This document shows, piece after piece, positions 11,670 to 56,475 of a stretch of DNA of 64,000 nt (its first letter is position 1; every line of letters begins with the position of its first letter). The notes beneath the pieces were generated by a model that worked only from the letters and a program-made list of their open reading frames with translations, searched no databases and was not told the DNA's origin. A program made the translations under genes and the position numbers. Origin of the DNA: Methylocapsa acidiphila B2 (GTDB lineage: Bacteria > Pseudomonadota > Alphaproteobacteria > Rhizobiales > Beijerinckiaceae); the NCBI RefSeq assembly GCF_000427445.1, contig NZ_KE386496.1:186001-250000 (forward strand), given 5' to 3'.

Positions 11670-12485
11670 TCAATGGACTTGCAGCAGGAGCGCCACGAGC
11701 TCGCTCTGGCGATGCGTTCCGGTCTTCGCAAAAATTGACTTCAATTGGTTCCGCGCCGTCTCGCGGGAGATTTTAAGCTCGATCGCCGCGATCTCCGGTC
11801 CGGCTCCACGGGCGATGATGCATGCAAGCTTCGCCTCCGATGGCGTGAGGCCGAAGGCCTTCGCCAAGATCGGCGCCGGCGGACCAGGCTTCGGTCCCAG
11901 GGCGTTGAGCGTCAGCAGAGCGCGAACTTCAGGAGAGGGCCATCTCGCGGCGGGATCAATCGGCCAAATCCGCAAGAGAATCGGCAATTTGTCCTGACGC
12001 GGCACGATCAGCGGGTCGGCCGGCGGCGTAAGTTGAAATGGTTGCGACTTGAGCTGATCCGTGAAGGTTCTGAGCTTGGCGCGCGCCTCGATGTCGCGGA
12101 TCAAGAGGCGCCGGTCCTTGACGCGCACGTCATTATCGAAGGCCTCGACGGCTGAAAGATTGACGCCGACGACATATCCGTCGAGATCCAAAAGCACTGC
12201 GGGACCGCGCAGCATATTGAGCGCGTTCTGCGAATTGAACGTCTCGACGTCTGACCTCGACAAGGCTGCGATTTCGACCAATCGGCGGGTGAAAGCCGCG
12301 AGGATTCGTCTTTCCTCGGTCTCCAAGTCGATTTCGTCATAGCACACGGCAAATGGGGTCATCGGATCGCCAATATAATTCGTGTGAGCGTTGCGGCGCA
12401 TGCTGGGCCCCATCTCTTTCGTGCGTTCGAATAAAATGGTCCCGGTCTGACCAGAATGCGTGCAAGTCTCTTTCCGGGCAGTCAC
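11670..12485 (-). CDS. LuxR-type helix-turn-helix transcriptional regulator
   Basis: Up to 271 residues. The C-terminal 65 residues are a LuxR/FixJ DNA-binding domain: FGLTPSEAKLACIIARG, then ISRETARNQLKSIFAKTGTH, then RQSELV. Before it lies a PAS-like segment (AVLLDLDGYVVGVNLSAVEAF). No receiver domain or autoinducer-binding signature is evident, so the input signal is unknown. It shares the terminal AKTGTHRQ(S/A)EL design with the regulator at 45913 but lacks that protein's N-terminal 140 or so residues. The start is uncertain: ATGs at 12485, 12401 and 12362 are all possible. The long AT-rich region upstream is probably its promoter. Confidence 0.75.
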   Translation of the reverse strand: MTARKETCTHSGQTGTILFERTKEMGPSMRRNAHTNYIGDPMTPFAVCYDEIDLETEERRILAAFTRRLVEIAALSRSDVETFNSQNALNMLRGPAVLLDLDGYVVGVNLSAVEAFDNDVRVKDRRLLIRDIEARAKLRTFTDQLKSQPFQLTPPADPLIVPRQDKLPILLRIWPIDPAARWPSPEVRALLTLNALGPKPGPPAPILAKAFGLTPSEAKLACIIARGAGPEIAAIELKISRETARNQLKSIFAKTGTHRQSELVALLLQVH

Positions 12486-35655: not shown

Positions 35656-37119
35656 TTATTCTGAATCGTCCTCGAACAGCATCTCTTCGTCGGGAAGCGC
35701 TGGCGGCAGACTGAGCCGTTCGCGCAGGGCCTTGAATTCCGTCGTCAAAAGCAACGGCTTGGCCATGACCGACGCGAGTTCATTGGCGCGCTTCTGCAAG
35801 GCTGCCGTCTTCTCCGGATTTGCGGCTGCGACATCGTTCTTTTCCGACGGATCCTTGGCGATATTGTAAAGCTCGACGGCGGCCGGCAGCGGCGTGCGCC
35901 AGATCAGTTTCCAGTCGCCTTGCCGGACGCCGGCCCGAAACGGCTCGACATTGTAGATGACCTCGGTGCGCGGCGAGGACTGGCCCTCGGCGATCGCGGC
36001 CCAAACGTCATACCCGTCGAGCGGTTTGTTCTTGCCGAGTTTGCCGCCGGCCAGCTTCACAAGGGTCGGATACATGTCGGTGACGTGGATCATGCCGTCC
36101 ACGGCGCCGCCGGGCTTTATCTTTCCCGGCCAGTTAGCGAGCGATATTACCCGGGTGCCACCCTCGTAGAGAGAGCCTTTTCCATCTCTATAAGGGCCGT
36201 TATCGACGGGAATCTTGATTTTGGACATATCGCCTTCGCCCGCGAACATGGCGTTTCGCGTGCCGCCGTTGTCGCTTTGGAAGATGATCAGCGTGTTGCC
36301 CCGCATCTTCTTCTTGTCGAGAGCCTCGACGACGCGGCCGATCTGGTCGTCCATCGCGGTGATCTGCGCGGCATAGGCGCGGCGGCTCGGATCGGCGATG
36401 CTCGCGTAGCGATCGAGATAGGCCTGCGGCGCCTGATAGGGCGTGTGCGGCGCGTTGAACGCCAGATATAAAAACAACGGCGTCGCGGCGTCATGGGATT
36501 CGATCAGCGCCACTGCGTCGTTTCCGAGCAGCGTCGTCGAATAGCCTGGCTCCTTCACGGACTTATTGTCGCGATACCAATCGACGACGCCGTGCTGCTC
36601 ATGGGTGAAATAATCGATCTCGCCGATGAGCGGCCCGTATTGGTGATCGAATCCGCGTTGACGAGGCCAGTATTTCGGATCGCCGTGGCCGAGGTGCCAT
36701 TTGCCGACGATCGCGGTTTCATAGCCCGCGTCCTTCAGCGCTTGCGGCAGGAGCCATTCATCGGTCGCGAGGCCGTAAGTGTGGGTCGATAAAATGACCG
36801 CCGTCTGCAGTCCGTATCGGAAGGGATAGCGGCCCGTCATCAGCGCCGCGCGGGTCGGCGTGCACATGGGCTGAGCGTAAAACTGTTCGAGGCGCGCGCC
36901 GCCTTTGGCCAGCGCGTCAATATTGGGCGTTTGAATATCTGAGCCGTGATAGCCGACGTCTTTCCAGCCCTGATCGTCGGACAGGATGTAAACGATGTTC
37001 GGCGGCTGGATCCGCTCTGCGGCGAGGTCCTGCTGGGCGATTGCACCGGCCGCCGGAATCGCGGCTGCGATCAACGCCGCCAATGCTCGGGCGATCAAAC
37101 GGTTCAGCGGCAAGCTCAT
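35656..37119 (-). CDS. Secreted type I sulfatase (arylsulfatase family)
   Basis: Hydrolyses sulfate esters in the periplasm or outside the cell. The 487-residue protein starts with a Sec signal peptide (residues 1-28, cut after AIA). NIVYILSDDQGWKDVGYHGS carries the first calcium-binding aspartates. The C-X-P-X-R signature MCTPTRAALMTG follows, in which Cys86 would be converted to formylglycine. FQSDNGGTRNAM provides the distal metal site. The layout is close to arylsulfatase B/N-acetylgalactosamine-sulfatase types. Activation requires a formylglycine-generating enzyme, not seen in the window. GGGAGG precedes the ATG. Confidence 0.9.
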   Translation of the reverse strand: MSLPLNRLIARALAALIAAAIPAAGAIAQQDLAAERIQPPNIVYILSDDQGWKDVGYHGSDIQTPNIDALAKGGARLEQFYAQPMCTPTRAALMTGRYPFRYGLQTAVILSTHTYGLATDEWLLPQALKDAGYETAIVGKWHLGHGDPKYWPRQRGFDHQYGPLIGEIDYFTHEQHGVVDWYRDNKSVKEPGYSTTLLGNDAVALIESHDAATPLFLYLAFNAPHTPYQAPQAYLDRYASIADPSRRAYAAQITAMDDQIGRVVEALDKKKMRGNTLIIFQSDNGGTRNAMFAGEGDMSKIKIPVDNGPYRDGKGSLYEGGTRVISLANWPGKIKPGGAVDGMIHVTDMYPTLVKLAGGKLGKNKPLDGYDVWAAIAEGQSSPRTEVIYNVEPFRAGVRQGDWKLIWRTPLPAAVELYNIAKDPSEKNDVAAANPEKTAALQKRANELASVMAKPLLLTTEFKALRERLSLPPALPDEEMLFEDDSE

Positions 37120-45912: not shown

Positions 45913-47046
45913 TTGGACGCCCTGGCGCTTATTGCTATGATATATGAAAGCATGCTGGATCTAGAGGGGCTCCCCGATCTAGCGGAGGCATTAGTGCGTC
46001 TCGGTGGGGGACATGTAGGCGCATTGATCACGAGAGGCGATGCGGATTCTGCATCAATACTATCAGAGTTGAGCTATAATACAGATAAGAACGCCGAGAA
46101 ATCCTGGCTTGAAAGATACGCGCATATCAGCCCGCTTCTTCCTATGGTGAGGCGTGGAAAGCCCGGCGAAGTTATGACGGGATCGCGATTGGTCGCATCT
46201 GAATCCTATCAGAAGTCGGAATTTTATAACGAATGGGCCATCAAGCGCGACCACCTCGATTTCGTTGGGCTCATGCTGAGAAAAGAAAGTGGGATTGCGA
46301 CTTACTTCGCCATGTTTCGGCCGCGGAGCGCCGGCCTCGTGAGCCAGTCCGAGATCGAAAGCATGAAGATCGTCGCGCCTCACATCAAGCGCGCATATCT
46401 CATCAGTGATCTGCTCGGCGAATATAAAACGGAGATCGATGCGCTTGGAGACATGATCGCCAACGCCGGTTTCGGAACGATCCTTGCGGCGCAAGATGGA
46501 AAAATCCTTTATGCAAATCATTTTGCCGAGACGCTGATGCATTTCGGTCGCGGCCTGAGCGCTCGCCAGGGACGCGTCGTCGCGACAGACTTCCGGGCGG
46601 CGCAAAAGCTCACGGCGCTGATCGCTTCCGCTGCAAATCCGTCCGGCGGAAGATGGATAGGCGGATCGATGATATTGCCGGATCAGGACGGTCGCGGATC
46701 ATATGTCGTCCATGTGGTCCCTGTGTCCGAGCGAAACTCCCGTCGCATTATTTCCTATGACAATTTGGCGGCCGGCATTTTTATTCTGGATCGGCGCAGC
46801 GGCGCGGACGATCGCATCAGCGGCTTTGCGCGTCTTTTCGGTCTTAGTCCGACCGAAACGCGCGTGCTTTCGGAATTGATTTCGGGCGAAGGCCTCCCCC
46901 GCGCAGTGGAACGGCTGGCTATGACTGAGCCGACGGCGCGGACGCACTTACGCAACATTCTGGCGAAGACCGGAACGCATCGCCAAGCCGAGCTTATGCG
47001 CCTCTTTTTCGAAGTCACGATTCCCGGCCAAACGCCTCAGCGCTGA
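45913..47046 (+). CDS. LuxR-type transcriptional regulator upstream of motility genes
   Basis: Up to 377 residues. The N-terminal 150 residues are a GAF-like sensory region (from LEGLPDLAEALVRLGGGHVG). A PAS-like segment follows (FGTILAAQDGKILYANHFAE). The C-terminal DNA-binding domain is FGLSPTETRVLSELISGE, then EPTARTHLRNILAKTGTH and RQAELM. It precedes motA by 227 bases on the same strand. In rhizobia the LuxR-type pair VisN/VisR sits in the flagellar region and controls it, so a motility role is inferred, although only one such gene is here. The start may be the TTG at 45913 or the ATG at 45937. Confidence 0.8.
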   Translation: MDALALIAMIYESMLDLEGLPDLAEALVRLGGGHVGALITRGDADSASILSELSYNTDKNAEKSWLERYAHISPLLPMVRRGKPGEVMTGSRLVASESYQKSEFYNEWAIKRDHLDFVGLMLRKESGIATYFAMFRPRSAGLVSQSEIESMKIVAPHIKRAYLISDLLGEYKTEIDALGDMIANAGFGTILAAQDGKILYANHFAETLMHFGRGLSARQGRVVATDFRAAQKLTALIASAANPSGGRWIGGSMILPDQDGRGSYVVHVVPVSERNSRRIISYDNLAAGIFILDRRSGADDRISGFARLFGLSPTETRVLSELISGEGLPRAVERLAMTEPTARTHLRNILAKTGTHRQAELMRLFFEVTIPGQTPQR

Positions 47047-47273: not shown

Positions 47274-48158
47274 TTGGCGTTCGCAATCGGCATAATCATC
47301 GCGATCGGATGCATGCTCGGCGGGTTTGCCGCAATGGGCGGCCATGTCTCGGTCATCTGGCAGCCTTGGGAGTTTGTCATCATTTTTGGGTCGTCTCTCG
47401 GCACCTTTATCGTCGCCAATTCTCTATTGACGATCAAGGATACGGGAAGCGCCATCGTTGAGGCGGTTCTTGATCGCGCGACATCGCAGCGCGACTATCT
47501 CGACGTTCTCGGCGTGCTCTACACCTTGATGCGCGAATTGCGCGGAAAGGCGCGCAGTGAGGTCGAGCAACATGTGGATAGCCCGAGCGAATCCACGATT
47601 TTCAAGAATTTCCCAAAGGTTTTGGCCGATAAGGATCTGACAAGCTTCATTTGCGACTATTGCAGATTGATCATAATCGGAAACGCTCGAACGCATGAAA
47701 TAGAAGCGTTGATGGATGAAGAGATCCAAACCGTCAGTCATGACAAGCTGAAGCCTTTTCATGCCTTGACGGCTATCGCGGATAGCTTGCCGGCGTTGGG
47801 AATCGTCGCGGCGGTGCTGGGCGTGGTCAAGGCGATGGGCGCGTTGGATCAATCGCCCGAGCTTCTCGGCGGCCTCATTGGAGCCGCTCTCGTGGGCACT
47901 TTCGCGGGCATCGTCATGTCCTACGCAATCGTTGGGCCGCTTGCGCATAAGATCAAGGTCACCAGATTACAGAGGGTTCGGCTTTACGTCATCGTCAAGC
48001 AGACCTTGCTCGCCTTCATGAACGGCGCCATGCCGCAAATCGCACTTGAACATGGACGCAAGACCATCGCGTCGCATGATCGTCCGTCTATCGACATGGT
48101 CGAAAATGAGACCGTCTCGGGTGGGGCCAGCAGAACTGGACAGCAGCAGGCGGCATAA
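47274..48158 (+). CDS. motA: Flagellar motor stator protein MotA
   Basis: Proton-channel subunit that with MotB drives the flagellar rotor. The 294-residue protein has four membrane segments: two near the N-terminus (1-50) and two at about 165-235, with the channel prolines in [16 protein letters not shown] and [10 protein letters not shown]. The cytoplasmic loop has the charged residues that touch FliG ([16 protein letters not shown]). The start is a TTG behind GGAGG with seven bases of spacing. No motB is adjacent. It begins the block motA-fliM-fliN-fliG-flhB. Confidence 0.93.
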
Positions 48159-48190
48159 GGCGGCGGCCATATTTATCCCCGAGGAATTCA

Positions 48191-49105
48191 ATGCTGAAAA
48201 GCGGACCTGAACGGCTTCTCGACGCCGCGGGCGTATCGGTGGACCGCATGCCGATGTTGCATGTGATCTTCGATCGGATGGCGGCCCATTGCTCGGAAAA
48301 CTTGCGGCAGTTGTCGGCTGCTCCAGCGTTTTTTTCTGTTGATTCGATCGGCACGACGCGCATTGGCGACGCGCTCGACGCATCGGAAGGCAGCGTCATT
48401 ATCGGAATATTCAACGTTCAGGCTTGGGACGCACGGATACTCATAGGACTGGGTCATAATTTCATCTTCGCATTGGCCGAAGCCTTGTTTGGAGGCGACG
48501 GCGGCGAAGCGCCGGGAGGCGACAAGCGTCCATTATCCAACCTTGAAATTCGTCTTGCTCAAAAGACGTTCGAGCTGCTCGGAAGCGCGCTCGAAAGCGC
48601 GTTTGCGACGGTCTACGCGGCGCAATTCAAATTGGAGCGCGTCGAAACCCGGCTCGATTTCGCGGTTATCGCGCCGAGAAATACCTTTGGCGTGAATGCA
48701 ACGATCAAGTTGCGGGTTTTGGGCCGCAGCAGCGGAATGTTCGTTCTCATTCCCCAGACGGCCTTGAATTCCGTCCGCCCACATCTGGGCCGAGATCTGT
48801 CGAACGATATGTCGGTCCGAGACCCCCGATGGACTAAGCAGATCACCAATGAAATCGGTCGCACGGAGGTCATCGTCCGCGGCGTCCTCCAGGAGCGTCA
48901 TTTTGTCTTGGGAGACATCGCCTCGCTCCAAATCGGCCATGTCTTCGCCCTCCAAGCCACGACGAAAACGCGCGTAAAGCTAGAGTGCAATGCGCAACCG
49001 CTCTTTTGGTGCAGCCTCGGTCAGGCGGACGGCGTCTATGTGCTTCGCGTTGATGATTTCGTGAACCAGGAACAGCAATTCATCGACGATATGATTCAAA
49101 ATTGA
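48191..49105 (+). CDS. fliM: Flagellar motor switch protein FliM
   Basis: C-ring switch protein that binds phospho-CheY and FliG. The 304-residue protein has the FliM middle domain (IGIFNVQAWDARILIGLGHN, then ALAEALFGGDGGEAPGG) and a C-terminal SPOA domain (EVIVRGVLQERHFVLGDIAS). The N-terminal CheY-binding peptide of enterobacterial FliM is not obvious, and the protein is shorter than the usual 330-340 residues. GAGGAA precedes the ATG. It follows motA by 32 bases. Confidence 0.88.
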   Translation: MLKSGPERLLDAAGVSVDRMPMLHVIFDRMAAHCSENLRQLSAAPAFFSVDSIGTTRIGDALDASEGSVIIGIFNVQAWDARILIGLGHNFIFALAEALFGGDGGEAPGGDKRPLSNLEIRLAQKTFELLGSALESAFATVYAAQFKLERVETRLDFAVIAPRNTFGVNATIKLRVLGRSSGMFVLIPQTALNSVRPHLGRDLSNDMSVRDPRWTKQITNEIGRTEVIVRGVLQERHFVLGDIASLQIGHVFALQATTKTRVKLECNAQPLFWCSLGQADGVYVLRVDDFVNQEQQFIDDMIQN

Positions 49106-49330
49106 AAAATATATGCGCCGGATCGCGTAAAATGTCGCTTCGGCGCGCTCACGGCGAGTCATGCGTTAAGATCTAATCTATGTTGTGTGGTCTGCTGCGC
49201 GGATGCGCCGTTTCGCGCCGCAAAAGTGAGCGTCGCGACGACGATCTAAAAGGAGGCGATCGCCGCGCATAAATCAAATAAGACAGACATCGACCAAAAT
49301 GTTCAACAATCGAATGGAGATAAATGAGCA

Positions 49331-49666
49331 ATGTCGGACCTAGACGACGCGCCGTTGCAACATGTCGAAGCTGGCGTCGACGAAATTCCTATTAAGGCTA
49401 CCAATCAGCAAAATCTCGATGTGATTCTTCGCATTCCGGTCGATGTTCAGGTCGTGCTCGGCTCGGCGACTATGCCTGTGTCGAACCTTTTAAAGCTCGG
49501 CCGGGGGGCTGTCGTTCCGCTCGATCATAGAGTCGGCGAACCGGTCGACGTCGTCGTGAATGGACGACTCATCGCGCGTGGGGAAATTGTCGTCGTCGAA
49601 GACGACAATTCGCGATTCGGCGTATCCCTGACGGAAATTGTCGGTCCAACCGGATCAATTGAATAA
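49331..49666 (+). CDS. fliN: Flagellar motor switch protein FliN
   Basis: Lower C-ring protein built of one SPOA domain. At 111 residues it has the core IPVDVQVVLGSATMPVSNLL, KLGRGAVVPLDHRVGEPVDV and VNGRLIARGEIVVVEDDNSR. GGAG lies 12 bases before the ATG. It is separated from fliM by an unusually long 225-base gap and its stop codon directly abuts the fliG start. Confidence 0.93.
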   Translation: MSDLDDAPLQHVEAGVDEIPIKATNQQNLDVILRIPVDVQVVLGSATMPVSNLLKLGRGAVVPLDHRVGEPVDVVVNGRLIARGEIVVVEDDNSRFGVSLTEIVGPTGSIE

Positions 49667-50704
49667 ATGACGATGGCTTCGATGACGATGAATGGCGGCG
49701 CAGGCGCGCGGTCGTTTAAGGGACCCGAGAAAGTCGCCGCGCTTCTGCTTGCGATGGGCAAGCCCCTCGCCGGTCGTCTCTTGAAGCATTTCGACGTCGA
49801 TGAACTCAAGCAGATCACGAGATCCGTAGCGGAGCTCGGAGTCGTGCCGGTTCCGACCATCGAGACGCTGGTCGAAGAGTTCGCCGGTCAGTTCATGAAC
49901 GGCGCCGATCTTCTTGGATCGCCGAACGAGGTTGAGCAATTGCTCGATGGCGTCCTGTCGCCGGAGCAGATTGCGGACGTCATGTCCGACGTGACCGGAA
50001 ATTCAAATCAGGCGATGTGGGAAAGGCTTTCCAATGTCCCGGAGTCGATCTTCAGCGGCTACTTACAGAAAGAACATCCACAAACGGCGGCGTTCATCCT
50101 GTCCAAAGTCAGCCCGGTCTGCGCGGCGAAAGTCATGGGGCTGTTTTCGAGGGATCTTCGGAATGAAATGATGCGGCGAATGCTGAGCATAGCGCCTGTC
50201 ACAGAGGCGGCGGTACGAATTATCCAACGGCAACTGCAGGAGGACTTGTTATCTAATCTTTCACGTCAGAGCGGGAGCGAGCAAAATGTGAGGATAGCAA
50301 ACATTATCAATAAGCTTGACCGCGATCAAATGGAGGACGTGATGCAGAGTCTCGCCGTGGCGCGGCCCAAAGCCGTCGAAGTGCTACGTGGCCTCATGTT
50401 CACTTTCGACGACATCATTAAGTTGCAGCCGAAAGCGCGCAGCGTGCTCTTTGATAAAATTCCAACTGAGCTCGTGGTTCTGGCGTTGAAAGGGACAGAT
50501 GCGGCGTTCAGAGACGCTATTTTGTCATCCCTCGCGACTCGGGCGAGACGCATCGTCGACAGTGAATTGGCAAATGGAGGGCCGGCGCTTCAGCGAGACG
50601 TCTTGAAGGCGCGCAGGATGATCGCCGATACCGCTCTTGAATTATCGAGCAACGGCGAAATTGAATTGAGTTCGTCGGAGGACGAGGACGAAATTTACGA
50701 ATAG
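49667..50704 (+). CDS. fliG: Flagellar motor switch protein FliG
   Basis: Upper C-ring torque-generating protein that links the MS ring to the stator. The 345-residue protein has the N-terminal domain (KVAALLLAMGKPLAGRLLKH), the armadillo middle domain with the EHPQTAAFILSKV motif (EHPQT variant of EHPQ), and the C-terminal domain with LMFTFDDIIKLQPKARSVLF. The charged C-terminal helix contains the residues that meet MotA. It starts with no spacing after the fliN stop. Confidence 0.94.
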   Translation: MTMASMTMNGGAGARSFKGPEKVAALLLAMGKPLAGRLLKHFDVDELKQITRSVAELGVVPVPTIETLVEEFAGQFMNGADLLGSPNEVEQLLDGVLSPEQIADVMSDVTGNSNQAMWERLSNVPESIFSGYLQKEHPQTAAFILSKVSPVCAAKVMGLFSRDLRNEMMRRMLSIAPVTEAAVRIIQRQLQEDLLSNLSRQSGSEQNVRIANIINKLDRDQMEDVMQSLAVARPKAVEVLRGLMFTFDDIIKLQPKARSVLFDKIPTELVVLALKGTDAAFRDAILSSLATRARRIVDSELANGGPALQRDVLKARRMIADTALELSSNGEIELSSSEDEDEIYE

Positions 50705-50718
50705 AAGCTGGCGGGTCA

Positions 50719-51804
50719 ATGTCAGAACAAGAAGACAAGGAAAGCAAGACAGAGGATCCGACCGAAGGCAAGATCCGCAACGAAATGGAACGGGGCAATC
50801 GCCCGTTCTCGCGCGAAGCGGCGACATTTGCTTCATTTGTCGGAATGTTGATCATAGCGTCCTTTCTAATTAGAGACGCCGGGCGCTCGGTCACCATCAC
50901 GCTTGAGCGATTGCTTGCGGCGGTTGACGATATTCACATCGGCAACGGCTATGACGCGGTTGCTTTGGCGGGCGTTATCGCCCGCAGCATATTCAATTCG
51001 CTCATTCCTTTGTTCGCCGTTTTTGTTCTGGTGGGCCTGTCGGCCTCTTTCATCCAAAATCCACCGAGCATTTCGTTCGAGCGCATCAAGCCTGACTTAC
51101 AACGGATATCATTGGTAAACGGTTGGAGCCGTATATTCGGAGCTCGCGGTCAGGTCGAGTTTCTCAAGGGCGCTTGCAAGATGCTTTTCATGGGCGTCGT
51201 CGTCGCCATATTTTTCCGTTCCGAGTTGGATGTGCTGGTGAACGCCATGGCGATCCAGCCGGAGACGATTCCCGAGTTGATTCTGACGACGGCCACGCGG
51301 CTGCTATCAATTGTCTGCATTCTCATGGCGTTGCTGCTTGTTGCGGATCTTCTCTGGGTCCGCAGACAATGGTTCAGCGACTTGCGTATGAGCAAGCAGG
51401 AAATTAAGGATGAATTGAAGCGCAACGAAGGAGATCCGATACGAAAGGCCAGATTGCGTTCGCTTGCGCTGGACCGCCTACGCAAGAGCATGATTGCGGC
51501 GGTGCCGAAGGCGACGGTGGTGATTGCTAATCCGACCCATTATGCGATCGCGCTTCGATATGTGAAGGAAGAGGGCGGCGCGCCCGTCGTGCTGTCGAAA
51601 GGGCAGGACTTTATTGCACTGAAGATTAAGGAGATCGCAGCTCAACATTCCATTCCGATTATTGAGGACAAGGCTCTTGCTCGGGCGATGTATGAGCGCG
51701 TGGAGATCGATCAAGCGATCCCGGTCGAGTTTTATCGAGCCATAGCCGAGGTGATCCACCTTCTCTACGCGAAGGGAGGCAAAAGGACGGCGGTGGCAAA
51801 TTAG
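50719..51804 (+). CDS. flhB: Flagellar export apparatus protein FlhB
   Basis: Switches the export gate from hook to filament substrates. The 361-residue protein begins MSEQEDKESKTEDPTEGKIR, followed by four membrane helices (about 33-55, 90-112, 145-165, 190-212) and a cytoplasmic domain with the self-cleavage motif NPTH (Asn271-His274) in VIANPTHYAIALRY. It is the last gene of the block, 14 bases after fliG. The fliP/Q/R and flhA partners are not in the window. Confidence 0.95.
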   Translation: MSEQEDKESKTEDPTEGKIRNEMERGNRPFSREAATFASFVGMLIIASFLIRDAGRSVTITLERLLAAVDDIHIGNGYDAVALAGVIARSIFNSLIPLFAVFVLVGLSASFIQNPPSISFERIKPDLQRISLVNGWSRIFGARGQVEFLKGACKMLFMGVVVAIFFRSELDVLVNAMAIQPETIPELILTTATRLLSIVCILMALLLVADLLWVRRQWFSDLRMSKQEIKDELKRNEGDPIRKARLRSLALDRLRKSMIAAVPKATVVIANPTHYAIALRYVKEEGGAPVVLSKGQDFIALKIKEIAAQHSIPIIEDKALARAMYERVEIDQAIPVEFYRAIAEVIHLLYAKGGKRTAVAN

Positions 51805-51954: not shown

Positions 51955-53478
51955 TCAATGTGGCGGCATCCAGATCCAAAGCGGCGGCGGCCCGGCGAAT
52001 CGAACATCTTTCGTGATTGTAGCGTCGTCGAGATTGTCTGGCTTGAGGTAAATGAAATAATTGTCGTTTCGCTGGAATAGTTCTTTTTGAGGCCTGCTCT
52101 CGGGGCTAATCAACATGCTGTTTGTGAATCGCACATGCATATAATGCGGCAGCAATTGAGCGTATTTGTCGATTTTGGCGTTGAGATCGAAGTGGTAAGA
52201 TTGTCTTCCAACCACTTTGAGAACCGCCGCCGTGGCTTTATCGATCGGCGTCAGGGGCATTTCTCGCCATTCTGATCCGACCTGAATGAAAGCCTGCACG
52301 CTTGGCTCGAGCACGTAGAGGGGCTTGTCGCCGGAAGTGTTCTCTAGATAGATCGTAACATCGTAATGATTGTCGCCTAGCTGCGAAATCGATTCAATTT
52401 CGCTTTTCAACGTCGACGTCGCGAGATCTTCGAGGGCGGAAAGACGGTCTTGCTCCAGAGCGATTTTATAGTGCTGATATCGCAGGACGCTATAATTTCC
52501 GAGCAACGCGAGCGTGAAAATTGCGGCGGCAATCCCGAGCGCGCGGCCGGCGGCCGCTGGGAGAAGGCCGCCAAGCTGGCGGAGTTCCCGGGCGCCATTT
52601 GTCCGCGAGGCGTGCGTGCTTTCCGACTGAAAGGCCTTGTTTCCTCGAGAGGAAATGGAGATCTGCGCAGGTTTGAATAGTTCGGCGTTTTCTCGGCGAT
52701 CAGAGCCAAGCGATCCGACTGGCGTCTGTTTCAGCGTCGAGTAGGCGGCGGCGACTGGCGGAGGGGATAGCGACAGCGTGCTCGGCTGGTGCGGCGCCAA
52801 AGGTGCAGTTGGCGCATAGAGCATGCCGTGCTTCATGTGATACATGCGGTCGGCGCGCTTTGCGAGTTCCAGATTATGCGTGACGATGATCATGCCACAG
52901 GGGGTCTCGCGGCGCAGTTCCTCCAAAAGCGTGATGATGTCGTCTTCGGTGTCCTCGTCGAGATCGCTTGTGGGCTCATCGGCAAAGAGGAGGCGCGGAG
53001 CATTGATCAGCGCGCGCGCGATTGCCACTCGTCTCTGTTCGCCGCCCGACATCTCGCCAGGATAGGCCGACATGCGCTCCGACAGGCCCACCCTCTCGAG
53101 GAGCGCCTGGGCGCGCGCATAAGCGTCTTCGGCCGCCATGCTGGCGCCGAGCAAAGCGGGCAAGGCGACATTGTCAATCGCTCGCAGGTTCGGGAGCAGA
53201 CTGAAGAATTGAAAGACGAATCCCATGCTCCGGCAGCGGATGTCGGCGATGGTCCTCTCAGGCGACGCCCAGAGATCTTGGTCATCCAGCAGCACCTGCC
53301 CTTCGGTCGGTTTCGCGAGGGCGCCGATCATCGCGAGAAGCGTCGATTTTCCTGAGCCGGAGGGGCCCACAATCGAGACGAATTCTCGCTCGCCGAGGGT
53401 GAGACTGGCCTGGCGCACGACTTCGCATTTGGCTCCATCGCCATAGCGCTTGCAAAGCCCTACGGCGCGCAAGATCAT
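51955..53478 (-). CDS. ABC transporter ATPase fused to a membrane-anchored periplasmic domain
   Basis: 507 residues. Residues 1-230 are a LolD/MacB-type ATPase: Walker A GPSGSGKST, Q-loop GFVFQFFSLLPN, signature MSGGEQRR, Walker B LLFADEPTSDLD. After a 90-residue low-complexity linker comes one transmembrane helix at about 325-345 (ALGIAAAIFTLALLGNYSVL). A soluble domain of about 160 residues follows (HYDVTIYLENTSGDKPLYVL and on), which topology puts in the periplasm. Such a fusion is rare. Its start overlaps the permease stop (ATGA at 53475-53478), so translation is coupled. Together with the permease and the propeller it forms one transcription unit; the cargo is unknown. Confidence 0.85.
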   Translation of the reverse strand: MILRAVGLCKRYGDGAKCEVVRQASLTLGEREFVSIVGPSGSGKSTLLAMIGALAKPTEGQVLLDDQDLWASPERTIADIRCRSMGFVFQFFSLLPNLRAIDNVALPALLGASMAAEDAYARAQALLERVGLSERMSAYPGEMSGGEQRRVAIARALINAPRLLFADEPTSDLDEDTEDDIITLLEELRRETPCGMIIVTHNLELAKRADRMYHMKHGMLYAPTAPLAPHQPSTLSLSPPPVAAAYSTLKQTPVGSLGSDRRENAELFKPAQISISSRGNKAFQSESTHASRTNGARELRQLGGLLPAAAGRALGIAAAIFTLALLGNYSVLRYQHYKIALEQDRLSALEDLATSTLKSEIESISQLGDNHYDVTIYLENTSGDKPLYVLEPSVQAFIQVGSEWREMPLTPIDKATAAVLKVVGRQSYHFDLNAKIDKYAQLLPHYMHVRFTNSMLISPESRPQKELFQRNDNYFIYLKPDNLDDATITKDVRFAGPPPLWIWMPPH

Positions 53479-54719
53479 TGTGCGTTCTCGGATTGAATCA
53501 TGGCGTAGGGCTCCGCATGGCGGGTGCGCCAAGCGGGGAAGAAAGCGCCGGCGACGCCGATCGCCACGGCGATTGCGGCCGAGGCGGCGGCGGCGGCCAA
53601 AATCGCCGAAGTCGGCGGCCAGCCGAACGGGACGCCGAGCGAGATGAAATAGAAGCCGAGAGACCGTGCGAAGGCGAAGATAAGCGATAGGCCGAAGGCG
53701 AGGCCGACGAGGCCGCCCAGTCCGACGATCAGGCCGGCCTCGGTCAGGATGACGCTCGTGATCTGCTCCGGCCGAGCGCCCATCGCCCGCAGAAGGCCAA
53801 TCTCCCGGTAGCGCTCCTGTACGATCGCCGAGAACAAGAGCGAGACAAGGAACAGCAAAGCGACAAGCAATAGGCCGGCGAAGATGGCGACGCCCCAGGA
53901 CAGGCTGGCCAACGCCTGCCTCGCCGCCGTAAACACGGGGTTTCCCGCGACGATTTTGAGTCCCGGGATTTGGCCTATGGCGAATCGCGCCTGTTCGGCG
54001 GAGGCTCCGGCGGTGAGTTGAATTAGAAAGGCTGACGCTCTGTCCGGCCTAAGATCGGGCAGACAGGCTGAGGGCGCGCCGCCGCCGCGGGGTCGATAGA
54101 GTTTGCGTGAGGCGGCCATCGCATCGGCGAGGCGGGCGAAGCTCAGGAAATAGGATTCATCGAAGGGGCCGACGCCGGTCTTCCCTAATCGCGCCGCAAT
54201 GATGAAAGTGAGCCCGCAGATCGTGGCGGCCTCGCCGGGTTTGGTCGGAACTCGATCGCCGACGAAAAGATCGTTCGAGGATTCCGCCCGATCGCGTTCC
54301 GCAAGCCATGGCTGGACGGTGAAATCCGTGGCCGGGTCATAAGCGATGAGATTGACCGCCCGCCCCTCGATTTCGGCGCGAACGATCCTCTGAGCCGCGA
54401 CTTTTCCAATTCCGGGCAGATGTCGCAACGTTTCGCCAAGGGCAGCATCGAGGTCTTGATCGGTCGGCTGAACGGTCAGCAAGCTGCTCGTGATGTTGAC
54501 GAGCGTTGCAGATGGAACGACGACGAGATCCGCGCCCATACGGGAAAAGGTCGTTGCGACGCCTTCGCGCAAGGCCGAGCCTATAACATAGGCGGAAAAG
54601 CCGGCGCCAACCGAAATCATCGCCGCGAGCCCCAAGAAAAGGCTTCTCAGGCGCCGGCGGCCGACGTTTTGAGCCGCGAGCCGCAGCAGCAAGAAAAGGC
54701 CTCGGCGGTTCAACGCCAT
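53475..54719 (-). CDS. FtsX/MacB-type ABC transporter permease
   Basis: 414 residues in the FtsX-like topology: one N-terminal helix (about 25-45), a large periplasmic domain, then three C-terminal helices (about 285-310, 335-360, 375-400) with ERYREIGLLRAMGARPEQIT between, the coupling motif of LolE/MacB/FtsX permeases. These transporters act as mechanotransmitters rather than classic importers. The start is taken at an ATG behind GGGGA; in-frame ATGs 7 and 10 codons upstream are possible. It lies 76 bases after the propeller gene and overlaps the ATPase start. Confidence 0.85.
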   Translation of the reverse strand: MALNRRGLFLLLRLAAQNVGRRRLRSLFLGLAAMISVGAGFSAYVIGSALREGVATTFSRMGADLVVVPSATLVNITSSLLTVQPTDQDLDAALGETLRHLPGIGKVAAQRIVRAEIEGRAVNLIAYDPATDFTVQPWLAERDRAESSNDLFVGDRVPTKPGEAATICGLTFIIAARLGKTGVGPFDESYFLSFARLADAMAASRKLYRPRGGGAPSACLPDLRPDRASAFLIQLTAGASAEQARFAIGQIPGLKIVAGNPVFTAARQALASLSWGVAIFAGLLLVALLFLVSLLFSAIVQERYREIGLLRAMGARPEQITSVILTEAGLIVGLGGLVGLAFGLSLIFAFARSLGFYFISLGVPFGWPPTSAILAAAAASAAIAVAIGVAGAFFPAWRTRHAEPYAMIQSENAQ

Positions 54720-54795
54720 CGAATCCCCGAATACGAACATGTGGCGCATTCGCCGCCGGGCTCGAACGAGTCTTTTGATTCGGCGGTCATTGGAC

Positions 54796-56475
54796 TCAGA
54801 CCGTGGTGCAACGGCTATGGATCAGCTCTTGATTGTTGCGGGGCACGATCACGCAATCATGATGTCCGCCGAAATTGGGCATGTAGCCCACCGGCTCCAA
54901 CGTGTCCTGAGTGAAGACGAAGGTGCCGCCTTCCAACCTCTGGAAGCCGCTAAAGATCTGGAGAACATATTTCCCGTCGTAGGTGACATGCATGGTCTGG
55001 CAATCGACCCCGACGTTTTCAAAGCGCTTGATCGTCGACCAGGTGTTGGTGTCGACGACGACGATCGCGCTTTTCGCCGGCTTTTGATGCAGCTCGGACA
55101 CGAACATTTTCGACCCGTCCATCGAGTATGTAATGTGGAACGGGCTCGGCGTCGCTCCGACCCAATGCGAATCCTTGAAATTCAGAATGCGGGTCCATTT
55201 GCGAGGATCCCGGTCGAGGCAGTTGAAAATGCCCATGCTGTTTTGCCGGGTGTTGTTGGTCATCGCGAACCATTTGCCATTGGGGCCAAAGCCGCATTCG
55301 TGGCCAGAACTGACCACCGTGTCGAGCCTGATCTCCCAAATGCCGTCGGCGATTTTCTTGACCGGGATATTCTCCTTCGAGGTTCCCTCGGGTGATGAAA
55401 TGCAGGCGACCGGCTCCATCGTGGTGCGATCGATCACGACGCCGACGGCGAACATGCGCAGCGTGACGAGCGACACGGGATGGATTGGATGATGCACGCA
55501 ATTGTCCGAGCCGGTCAGGCTGCGGACCGCATCGCCGGGAAGCTGCCCCGTGTAGGCGAGATATTCGCCCATAGGAACCATTTCCCAGTCGAGCTTATTG
55601 CCTTTCGTGCCGCGATAATCATAAAGCCCGGTCTCGGGCGCCATGACGAGTTGCGTGATGCGGACTGTCCCGCCCTTGAACCAATTGTCGGCGAGGGCGC
55701 CATTAGGCTCATCGCCGATCCAATCGAAGCGAAATGCAGCCAGCACCTTGGTCTTTTGGATGCCTGTGGCGCGGGAAAAAAATGCGACAATATCTTTCTG
55801 GCCGTCCGAAACGGAGAAGCCGGAGGCGTCGGGAAAGATGACGGTGTGAACCCCAAGTCCGATCCCCGTCGTCTCCGCGATATTCTCCAAAAGGTTCATC
55901 TGTTGGCCGTCGAAGCCGACGCGATAAATTTGATTGCCCTGGCCCCAAAGCGGATCGAGCATTCCATGCTCGCGCAATTGGCTCGGAATTCCATAAATCA
56001 GGGCGTTCTGGCCGCCTTGGGTCGAATTGATGAATTCGAATCCCTTGCGCGGCTCCGCCGAGGGGAAGGCCGCGAGATGATGCGCGATCGGGCAGCTGTC
56101 GCCATAATTCCAATATTCGATCCAGGCCATGGTTTTGCCGCTGGCGAGATCTTGCAATTGTGCGCCGCCGCCGAGCTTGGTGGGCGTCAGCCAAAGGTAG
56201 TCGCCGAGCGCATTGAAGCGAGGGGTCTCGCTCTGGGCTGTCGGTTGCGCGGAGGGGGCGCCAGCCGGCTCGCCGAAGAGACGCGACCAGAAGCCCTCGG
56301 CCCGCGCCCCTCCGCCGCCAAGAATTGCGCCGATGACGCCGCCGCCCGCGCCCTGCAGGATCTTTCTGCGATCGAGGGCGCCATGCCGGTTGAAGAGTTG
56401 CAGAGAAGCGGGCGCTGCAATTGTCCGAATCGTGGACCCTTCTTTTTTTGATGCGGACGAATCGCTCGGCGTCAT
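54796..56475 (-). CDS. Tat-exported NosZ-like beta-propeller without CuA domain
   Basis: 559 residues. A Tat signal (DRRKILQGAGGG at 35-46) precedes a beta-propeller resembling the N-terminal part of nitrous oxide reductase. Possible counterparts of the seven CuZ histidines are His132-His133 (PIAHHLAAF), His210 (GLGVHTVI), His392 (SGHECGFG), His447 (SPFHITYS), His496 (TMHVTYD) and His539 (GHHDCVIV). The spacing 392 to 447 equals the 55 of NosZ, and GHHDCVIVPRNN matches the NosZ EPHDC block. An extra DNCVHHPIHP lies at 324-333. The C-terminal CuA domain of NosZ is missing; the protein ends 20 residues after that His. Family membership is inferred from motifs, not a search; function is unknown. 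GGAAG precedes the ATG. Confidence 0.7.
   Translation of the reverse strand: MTPSDSSASKKEGSTIRTIAAPASLQLFNRHGALDRRKILQGAGGGVIGAILGGGGARAEGFWSRLFGEPAGAPSAQPTAQSETPRFNALGDYLWLTPTKLGGGAQLQDLASGKTMAWIEYWNYGDSCPIAHHLAAFPSAEPRKGFEFINSTQGGQNALIYGIPSQLREHGMLDPLWGQGNQIYRVGFDGQQMNLLENIAETTGIGLGVHTVIFPDASGFSVSDGQKDIVAFFSRATGIQKTKVLAAFRFDWIGDEPNGALADNWFKGGTVRITQLVMAPETGLYDYRGTKGNKLDWEMVPMGEYLAYTGQLPGDAVRSLTGSDNCVHHPIHPVSLVTLRMFAVGVVIDRTTMEPVACISSPEGTSKENIPVKKIADGIWEIRLDTVVSSGHECGFGPNGKWFAMTNNTRQNSMGIFNCLDRDPRKWTRILNFKDSHWVGATPSPFHITYSMDGSKMFVSELHQKPAKSAIVVVDTNTWSTIKRFENVGVDCQTMHVTYDGKYVLQIFSGFQRLEGGTFVFTQDTLEPVGYMPNFGGHHDCVIVPRNNQELIHSRCTTV

Follow-up and report, generated by a model that had tools for sequence, protein, structure and literature searches.

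Does the window, a stretch of 64,000 nucleotides from Methylocapsa acidiphila B2, encode a stray relative of nitrous oxide reductase (NosZ) or a member of another family of periplasmic copper enzymes? The question is raised by an open reading frame (ORF) of 559 codons on the reverse strand (54796..56475; P0001), for which coordinates, strand and length had been given correctly in the original prediction. There, the product was read as a Tat-exported, NosZ-like propeller with seven histidine ligands of a CuZ-type copper-sulfur cluster and without the electron-entry CuA domain. The ORF is real and conserved: against four orthologues, dN/dS was 0.07-0.09 (NG86, with dS near saturation), which indicates strong constraint by purifying selection. 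The host genome (4.1 Mb) carries pmoA and the host is therefore a methanotroph. In the most likely reading, the protein is a modified thiocyanate dehydrogenase (TcDH); it is probably a Tat-exported copper oxidoreductase of the Q-type subfamily, in which one histidine of the copper site is replaced by glutamine.

Relationship to thiocyanate dehydrogenase

Searching the PDB with phmmer, the best match was pmTcDH of Pelomicrobium (5.2e-125), while the Thioalkalivibrio enzymes matched at 6e-112 and weaker (tpTcDH 2.4e-111); nine TcDH sequences were followed by just two matches at chance level. Identity to the TcDHs of these two genera is 40-44%, and a profile built from 37 relatives matched TcDH at 1e-184. 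For comparison of folds, an AlphaFold2 model was made with an alignment of 37 relatives (pLDDT 80.1, pTM 0.84). With this predicted model, Foldseek against the PDB returned 20 TcDH chains at the top (TMq 0.86-0.88, 38-42% identity), next in rank was NirF at TMq 0.45, and NosZ was absent among the best 50 of 1774 matches. As the best match by sequence and by fold, over the full length, is TcDH, the protein is a TcDH homologue and not NosZ. TcDH structures themselves resemble the NosZ propeller. No Pfam or NCBIfam model was found for the TcDH-like family, and its weak matches fall on generic propellers. Among 37 members these were DUF1513, DUF5074 (19/37), Cytochrom_D1, hydrazine synthase beta and TmcD, and for two of the 37 also L-NosZ (best 0.003); all were read as fold background and rejected as memberships.

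The search against NosZ models proposed along with the original prediction gave no match for the protein. Within the host genome, TIGR04244 (NosZ) matched only a short stretch, which lies far from the gene and corresponds to the CuA portion of that model, and the lactonase-type NosZ model matched six places, none of them at this locus. Since the NosZ models found no match and the lactonase-type model has none at this locus, the proposed orphan NosZ-like CuZ enzyme is not supported. Profile-profile comparison with NosZ (a profile of seven sequences, from the 7/12 NosZ loci that were aligned) was not significant, with an E of 0.075 and a probability of 0.75%. The genes nosR, nosD and nosL were not seen in the ORF lists around the gene, from which this was judged.

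The N-terminus carries a Tat-type signal region (56299..56373, reverse strand), in which DRRKIL (residues 35-40) is followed by a hydrophobic stretch. Tat export, predicted here by pattern, had been proposed before, and a loose RRxhh pattern recurs in 75/78 ORFs of the family.

The putative copper site and its glutamine

The 13 active-site residues of TcDH were taken from the legend of Fig. 4 in PMC6504805. They were followed by alignment through 68 distinct Q-type sequences, namely 14 A-type (including that of the window), 4 A2 and 50 B-type sequences, and through eight H-type sequences (two TcDH and six of group C); identical rows were counted once and the fragments L069 and L072 were excluded from every residue count. 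Twelve of the 13 residues are invariant in 68/68 Q-type sequences. In the protein (all coordinates on the reverse strand), they include Lys100 (56176..56178; TcDH Lys103), His132-His133 (56077..56082; His135-His136), His210 (55846..55848; His206), Glu298 (55582..55584; Glu288), Asp324 (55504..55506; Asp314), His392 (55300..55302; His381), His447 (55135..55137; His437) and His539 (His528), the latter in the pair His538-His539 at 54859..54864. Together with the low dN/dS, this residue pattern is far beyond chance. The thirteenth residue, His482 of TcDH, corresponds to Gln493 (54997..54999). This position holds glutamine in all 68 Q-type sequences, the window's included, versus histidine in 8/8 H-type sequences, which carry all 13 residues.

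Three further positions separate the two types. Met302 (55570..55572, reverse strand) is methionine in 68/68 Q-type sequences versus glycine in 8/8 H-type sequences (Gly292 of TcDH); Leu462 is fixed in the Q-type, whereas all eight H-type sequences have tryptophan (Trp452 of TcDH); and Thr99, present in 65/68 Q-type sequences, is glycine in 8/8 of the H-type. Met302 is a possible soft copper ligand, and it falls in a low-confidence part of the predicted model. The glutamine in the seventh ligand position, the methionine close to Glu298 (Met302) and Leu462 point to an altered site and perhaps an altered substrate.

How does this bear on the seven histidines first taken as CuZ ligands? All of them (His132-133, 210, 392, 447, 496 and 539) are present, as is the HHPIH cluster at residues 328-332. 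The comparison uses an assumed mapping of NosZ ligands onto TcDH. Six of the histidines fit the TcDH site, whereas His496 is ruled out as the seventh ligand by the alignment, in which Gln493 occupies the ligand position; in choosing His496, the original prediction overlooked the glutamine standing in place of TcDH His482. His496 itself occurs in 14/14 A-type rows (window aside), 1/4 A2 rows and 0/51 B-type rows. The cluster HHPIH (55480..55494, reverse strand) had been noted as an extra feature. The predicted propeller has the site residues where strands begin or close by, and HHPIH at the distal end of its strand and in the turn after it; an extra copper site at HHPIH is therefore unlikely. 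His329 is common to most relatives, also those of group C, and the remainder of the cluster is confined to the A group.

A NosZ-like copper-sulfur enzyme or orphan NosZ can now be judged against these residues. With the CuZ domain of NosZ the protein shares the plan of a propeller lined by histidines. The 55 residues between His392 and His447 equal the spacing of the two corresponding histidines that are invariant in the aligned NosZ set (H327 and H382 of L078), and three histidine pairs (392/327, 447/382, 539/494) are in register in the weak profile alignment. Unlike NosZ, it has glutamine at one of the seven sites, leaving six histidines plus Gln493 in the TcDH alignment, and it has no CuA domain, as it stops 18 residues past Cys541 of the HHDC block. 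Taken with the missing model match, the insignificant profile similarity and a fold ranking led by TcDH, this makes NosZ identity very improbable. Of the earlier reading, the histidine-lined propeller without CuA stands and fits TcDH, and the NosZ-like copper-sulfur identity falls.

Branch history, operon and occurrence

In trees from which near-duplicates were omitted, all Q-type sequences fall on the same side of a branch whose support is 99/98 (52 rows), 100/95 (48 rows) and 97/92 (36 rows, with the site masked). The 52-row tree gave a long-branch warning for L015, which was eased by the group C rows added in the 48-row tree. On the 48-row and the site-masked 36-row tree, the His/Gln difference at position 482 needs one change. 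Given group C as outgroup, its direction would be from histidine to glutamine, a polarity that depends on this rooting.

Group C (L015, L100-L104) consists of TcDH of the Thiohalobacter/Guyparkeria type; it belongs to the same family, has all 13 residues and histidine at 482. Its loci, unlike those of the Q-type, show a redoxin gene upstream in 6/6 cases; several also have RND, sigma-54 regulator or GAF kinase genes, and no transporter like that of the Q-type was found at these loci by BLAST. As far as the locus is described in the parts of PMC6504805 consulted, this arrangement resembles that of Thiohalobacter and Guyparkeria. Group C (with flanks L105-L110) occurs also in one genome of the host's own family.

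Downstream of the 559-codon gene, after 46 nt, lies an FtsX/MacB-type ABC permease gene (53475..54749, reverse strand; PF02687 1.4e-16), followed by a gene for a LolD-like ABC ATPase fused to a membrane-anchored periplasmic domain (51955..53478, reverse strand; PF00005 9.1e-32). The likely ATPase start, ATG at 53478, overlaps the permease stop (ATGA). The LolD model matched the ATPase ORF at 4.5e-68, which is below the model's cut-off. Its C-terminal part (51955..52632, reverse strand) comprises one transmembrane stretch, predicted by eye, and a domain of about 170 residues for which no Pfam match was found. This operon is conserved. The permease follows in 14/14 A-type, 2/4 A2 and 51/53 B-type loci, and the two B exceptions lack room, so that the count is 51/51 for B-type loci with room. 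Where 3.3 kb or more of sequence lie downstream, all three parts follow in 10/10 A, 1/2 A2 and 36/36 B loci. In two Methylococcaceae MAGs, L027 (8 kb of room) and L028 (2.1 kb), the protein is kept and no transporter was found nearby. The annotated order on the Methylocella tundrae plasmid is hypothetical protein, ABC permease, ABC ATPase and hypothetical protein; there, the C-terminal domain of the ATPase is a separate gene, whereas it is fused in the host. Neither the promoter scan, the upstream RNA fold nor Rfam yielded anything beyond chance at the gene, and no sigma-54 site beyond chance was found near it.

On the opposite strand, flagellar and motor genes adjoin the operon (47274-51804, forward strand; MotA, FliM, FliN, FliG and FlhB, by eye). 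Elsewhere in the window are a sulfatase gene with a secretion-type N-terminus (35656-37119, reverse strand; PF00884 8.7e-59) and two genes for regulators whose C-termini are LuxR-type by eye and alike (11670-12485, reverse strand, without a Pfam match; 45913-47046, forward strand).

Relatives were matched in 15/198 related genomes. Within the host's genus, which takes in the USCalpha_AHI MAG and Methylocella tundrae, 11/15 genomes (host included) carry one copy each, three of the A-type and eight of the B-type. Across this genus, A-type and B-type replace each other as if interchangeable. In the genus of Methylocystis rosea, 16/39 genomes carry a match, all about 80% identical. Evenly drawn samples gave 2/398 genomes for the phylum with tpTcDH as query (the host's own and G031) and 6/369 for the class of L027. 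Because the scan requires exact peptide matches, these counts are lower bounds. No relative was found in the viral contigs searched; plasmids contributed two records, both of Methylocella tundrae, with the Q-type protein annotated as hypothetical protein in both. The A and A2 types come from, among others, USCalpha_AHI, Methylocystis species, the two Methylococcaceae MAGs, one MAG of Enhydrobacter and one of Myxococcales, the last from a thiocyanate reactor series. The B-type is found in Methylocella tundrae, Reyranella and Ancylobacter, among others. Many hosts of the Q-type protein are methanotrophs.

This distribution bears on the idea of a non-catalytic copper binder, a periplasmic store or a means of delivering copper to the particulate methane monooxygenase. 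The host's pmoA, the mostly methanotrophic A-type relatives and the loss of one ligand would agree with it. The catalytic residues Lys100, Glu298 and Asp324 are, however, kept in 68/68 sequences, and B-type proteins occur in Reyranella and Ancylobacter and also in Methylocella tundrae, which according to the consulted part of PMC6522787 has soluble methane monooxygenase only. We therefore regard a mere copper binder as improbable.

Proposed function and comparison with known systems

The modified TcDH retains the base, the acidic residues and six of the histidines, and is therefore best read as an enzyme that uses copper for redox chemistry on a small anion. In TcDH, as described in the part of PMC9456337 consulted, thiocyanate is bound across three coppers, the C-S bond is cleaved and two electrons are passed to a cytochrome c. 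For the Q-type protein we infer copper binding, ion number, substrate, electron acceptor and the role of the transporter. Its seven-bladed propeller would hold a copper cluster in an axial cavity by His132, His133, His210, His392, His447 and His539, surrounded by Lys100, Gln153, Glu298, Asp324, Asp540 and Arg555. The small anion, thiocyanate or something closely related, would be oxidised in the periplasm, with a cytochrome c receiving the electrons. The transporter of FtsX/LolD type and its anchored periplasmic domain may serve copper loading or the handling of a sulfur product. Against a copper oxidoreductase count the replacement of a defining site residue in every Q-type member, the two Methylococcaceae MAGs in which no transporter was found nearby, and copCD, tatA, fccAB and a sigma-54 system, none of which was seen beside the gene in the host's ORF list. 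Cyanase (PF02560) was not found in the host genome by a search whose control was positive in 1/14 genomes, which counts against a TcDH-type reading; according to the parts of PMC6504805 consulted, Thioalkalivibrio also lacks cyanase. The host genome holds one SoxY-like gene.

Could the protein be a plain TcDH that converts thiocyanate to cyanate and sulfur as in Thioalkalivibrio, with Gln493 binding copper adequately? Fold and twelve site residues agree with this, the transporter context is similar as far as it is described in the consulted part of PMC5744179, and two relatives (L029 and L038) come from thiocyanate bioreactors ('scnpilot' in the part of PMC5458468 seen). The bioreactor origin is a weak point, because it is noted by title for just 2/58 loci. 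Glutamine is fixed in one branch and histidine in the other, with accompanying differences at Met302, Leu462 and, in almost every sequence, Thr99, so that we consider plain TcDH activity possible and rather unlikely. Somewhat more readily, though still tentatively, we can imagine a copper centre rebuilt without His482, with Met302 or another branch-specific residue helping, to give a different cluster and a different reaction, whose substrate might be some other sulfur anion or pseudohalide and which would serve methanotrophs (USCalpha included) and other soil and freshwater bacteria.

The TcDH family itself is already known; what is described here is a subfamily with a natural ligand change, in methanotrophs and others. 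In the literature searched, which lay mostly outside the subscription journals, no text linking TcDH with Methylocystis was found. Given its presence in 11/15 genomes of the host's genus and 16/39 of that of Methylocystis rosea, the protein may carry out an unrecorded periplasmic reaction of methanotrophs. TcDH has a rare copper centre at which a substrate is oxidised without dioxygen. As glutamine stands at this position in all examined sequences of a natural branch, with the rest of the site intact, the role of the ligand becomes testable in natural enzymes.

Among known systems, the closest is TcDH of Thioalkalivibrio paradoxus and Pelomicrobium methylotrophicum (EC 1.8.2.7; PDB 5F75, 8Q9X), a solved three-copper propeller enzyme with which the 559-residue protein has in common the fold, Tat export, twelve of 13 active-site residues and the lack of CuA. 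In Thioalkalivibrio, following the parts of PMC5744179 and PMC5328954 consulted, two pairs of permease and ATPase genes come after the TcDH gene, as does a gene whose product has a single N-terminal membrane helix; a permease and ATPase downstream are thus shared with the host, a likeness by description. The TcDH neighbours copCD, fccAB and a sigma-54 regulator, and likewise tatA, were not seen beside the gene in the host's ORF list. By their PDB titles, engineered tpTcDH His482Gln (6SJI) and pmTcDH H447Q (8YU5, 8YU6) have glutamine at the equivalent position. The natural glutamine branch can thereby be set beside solved structures of this mutation; 6SJI, 8YU5 and 8YU6 are laboratory mutants, whereas the glutamine of the Q-type is natural and fixed across the whole branch.
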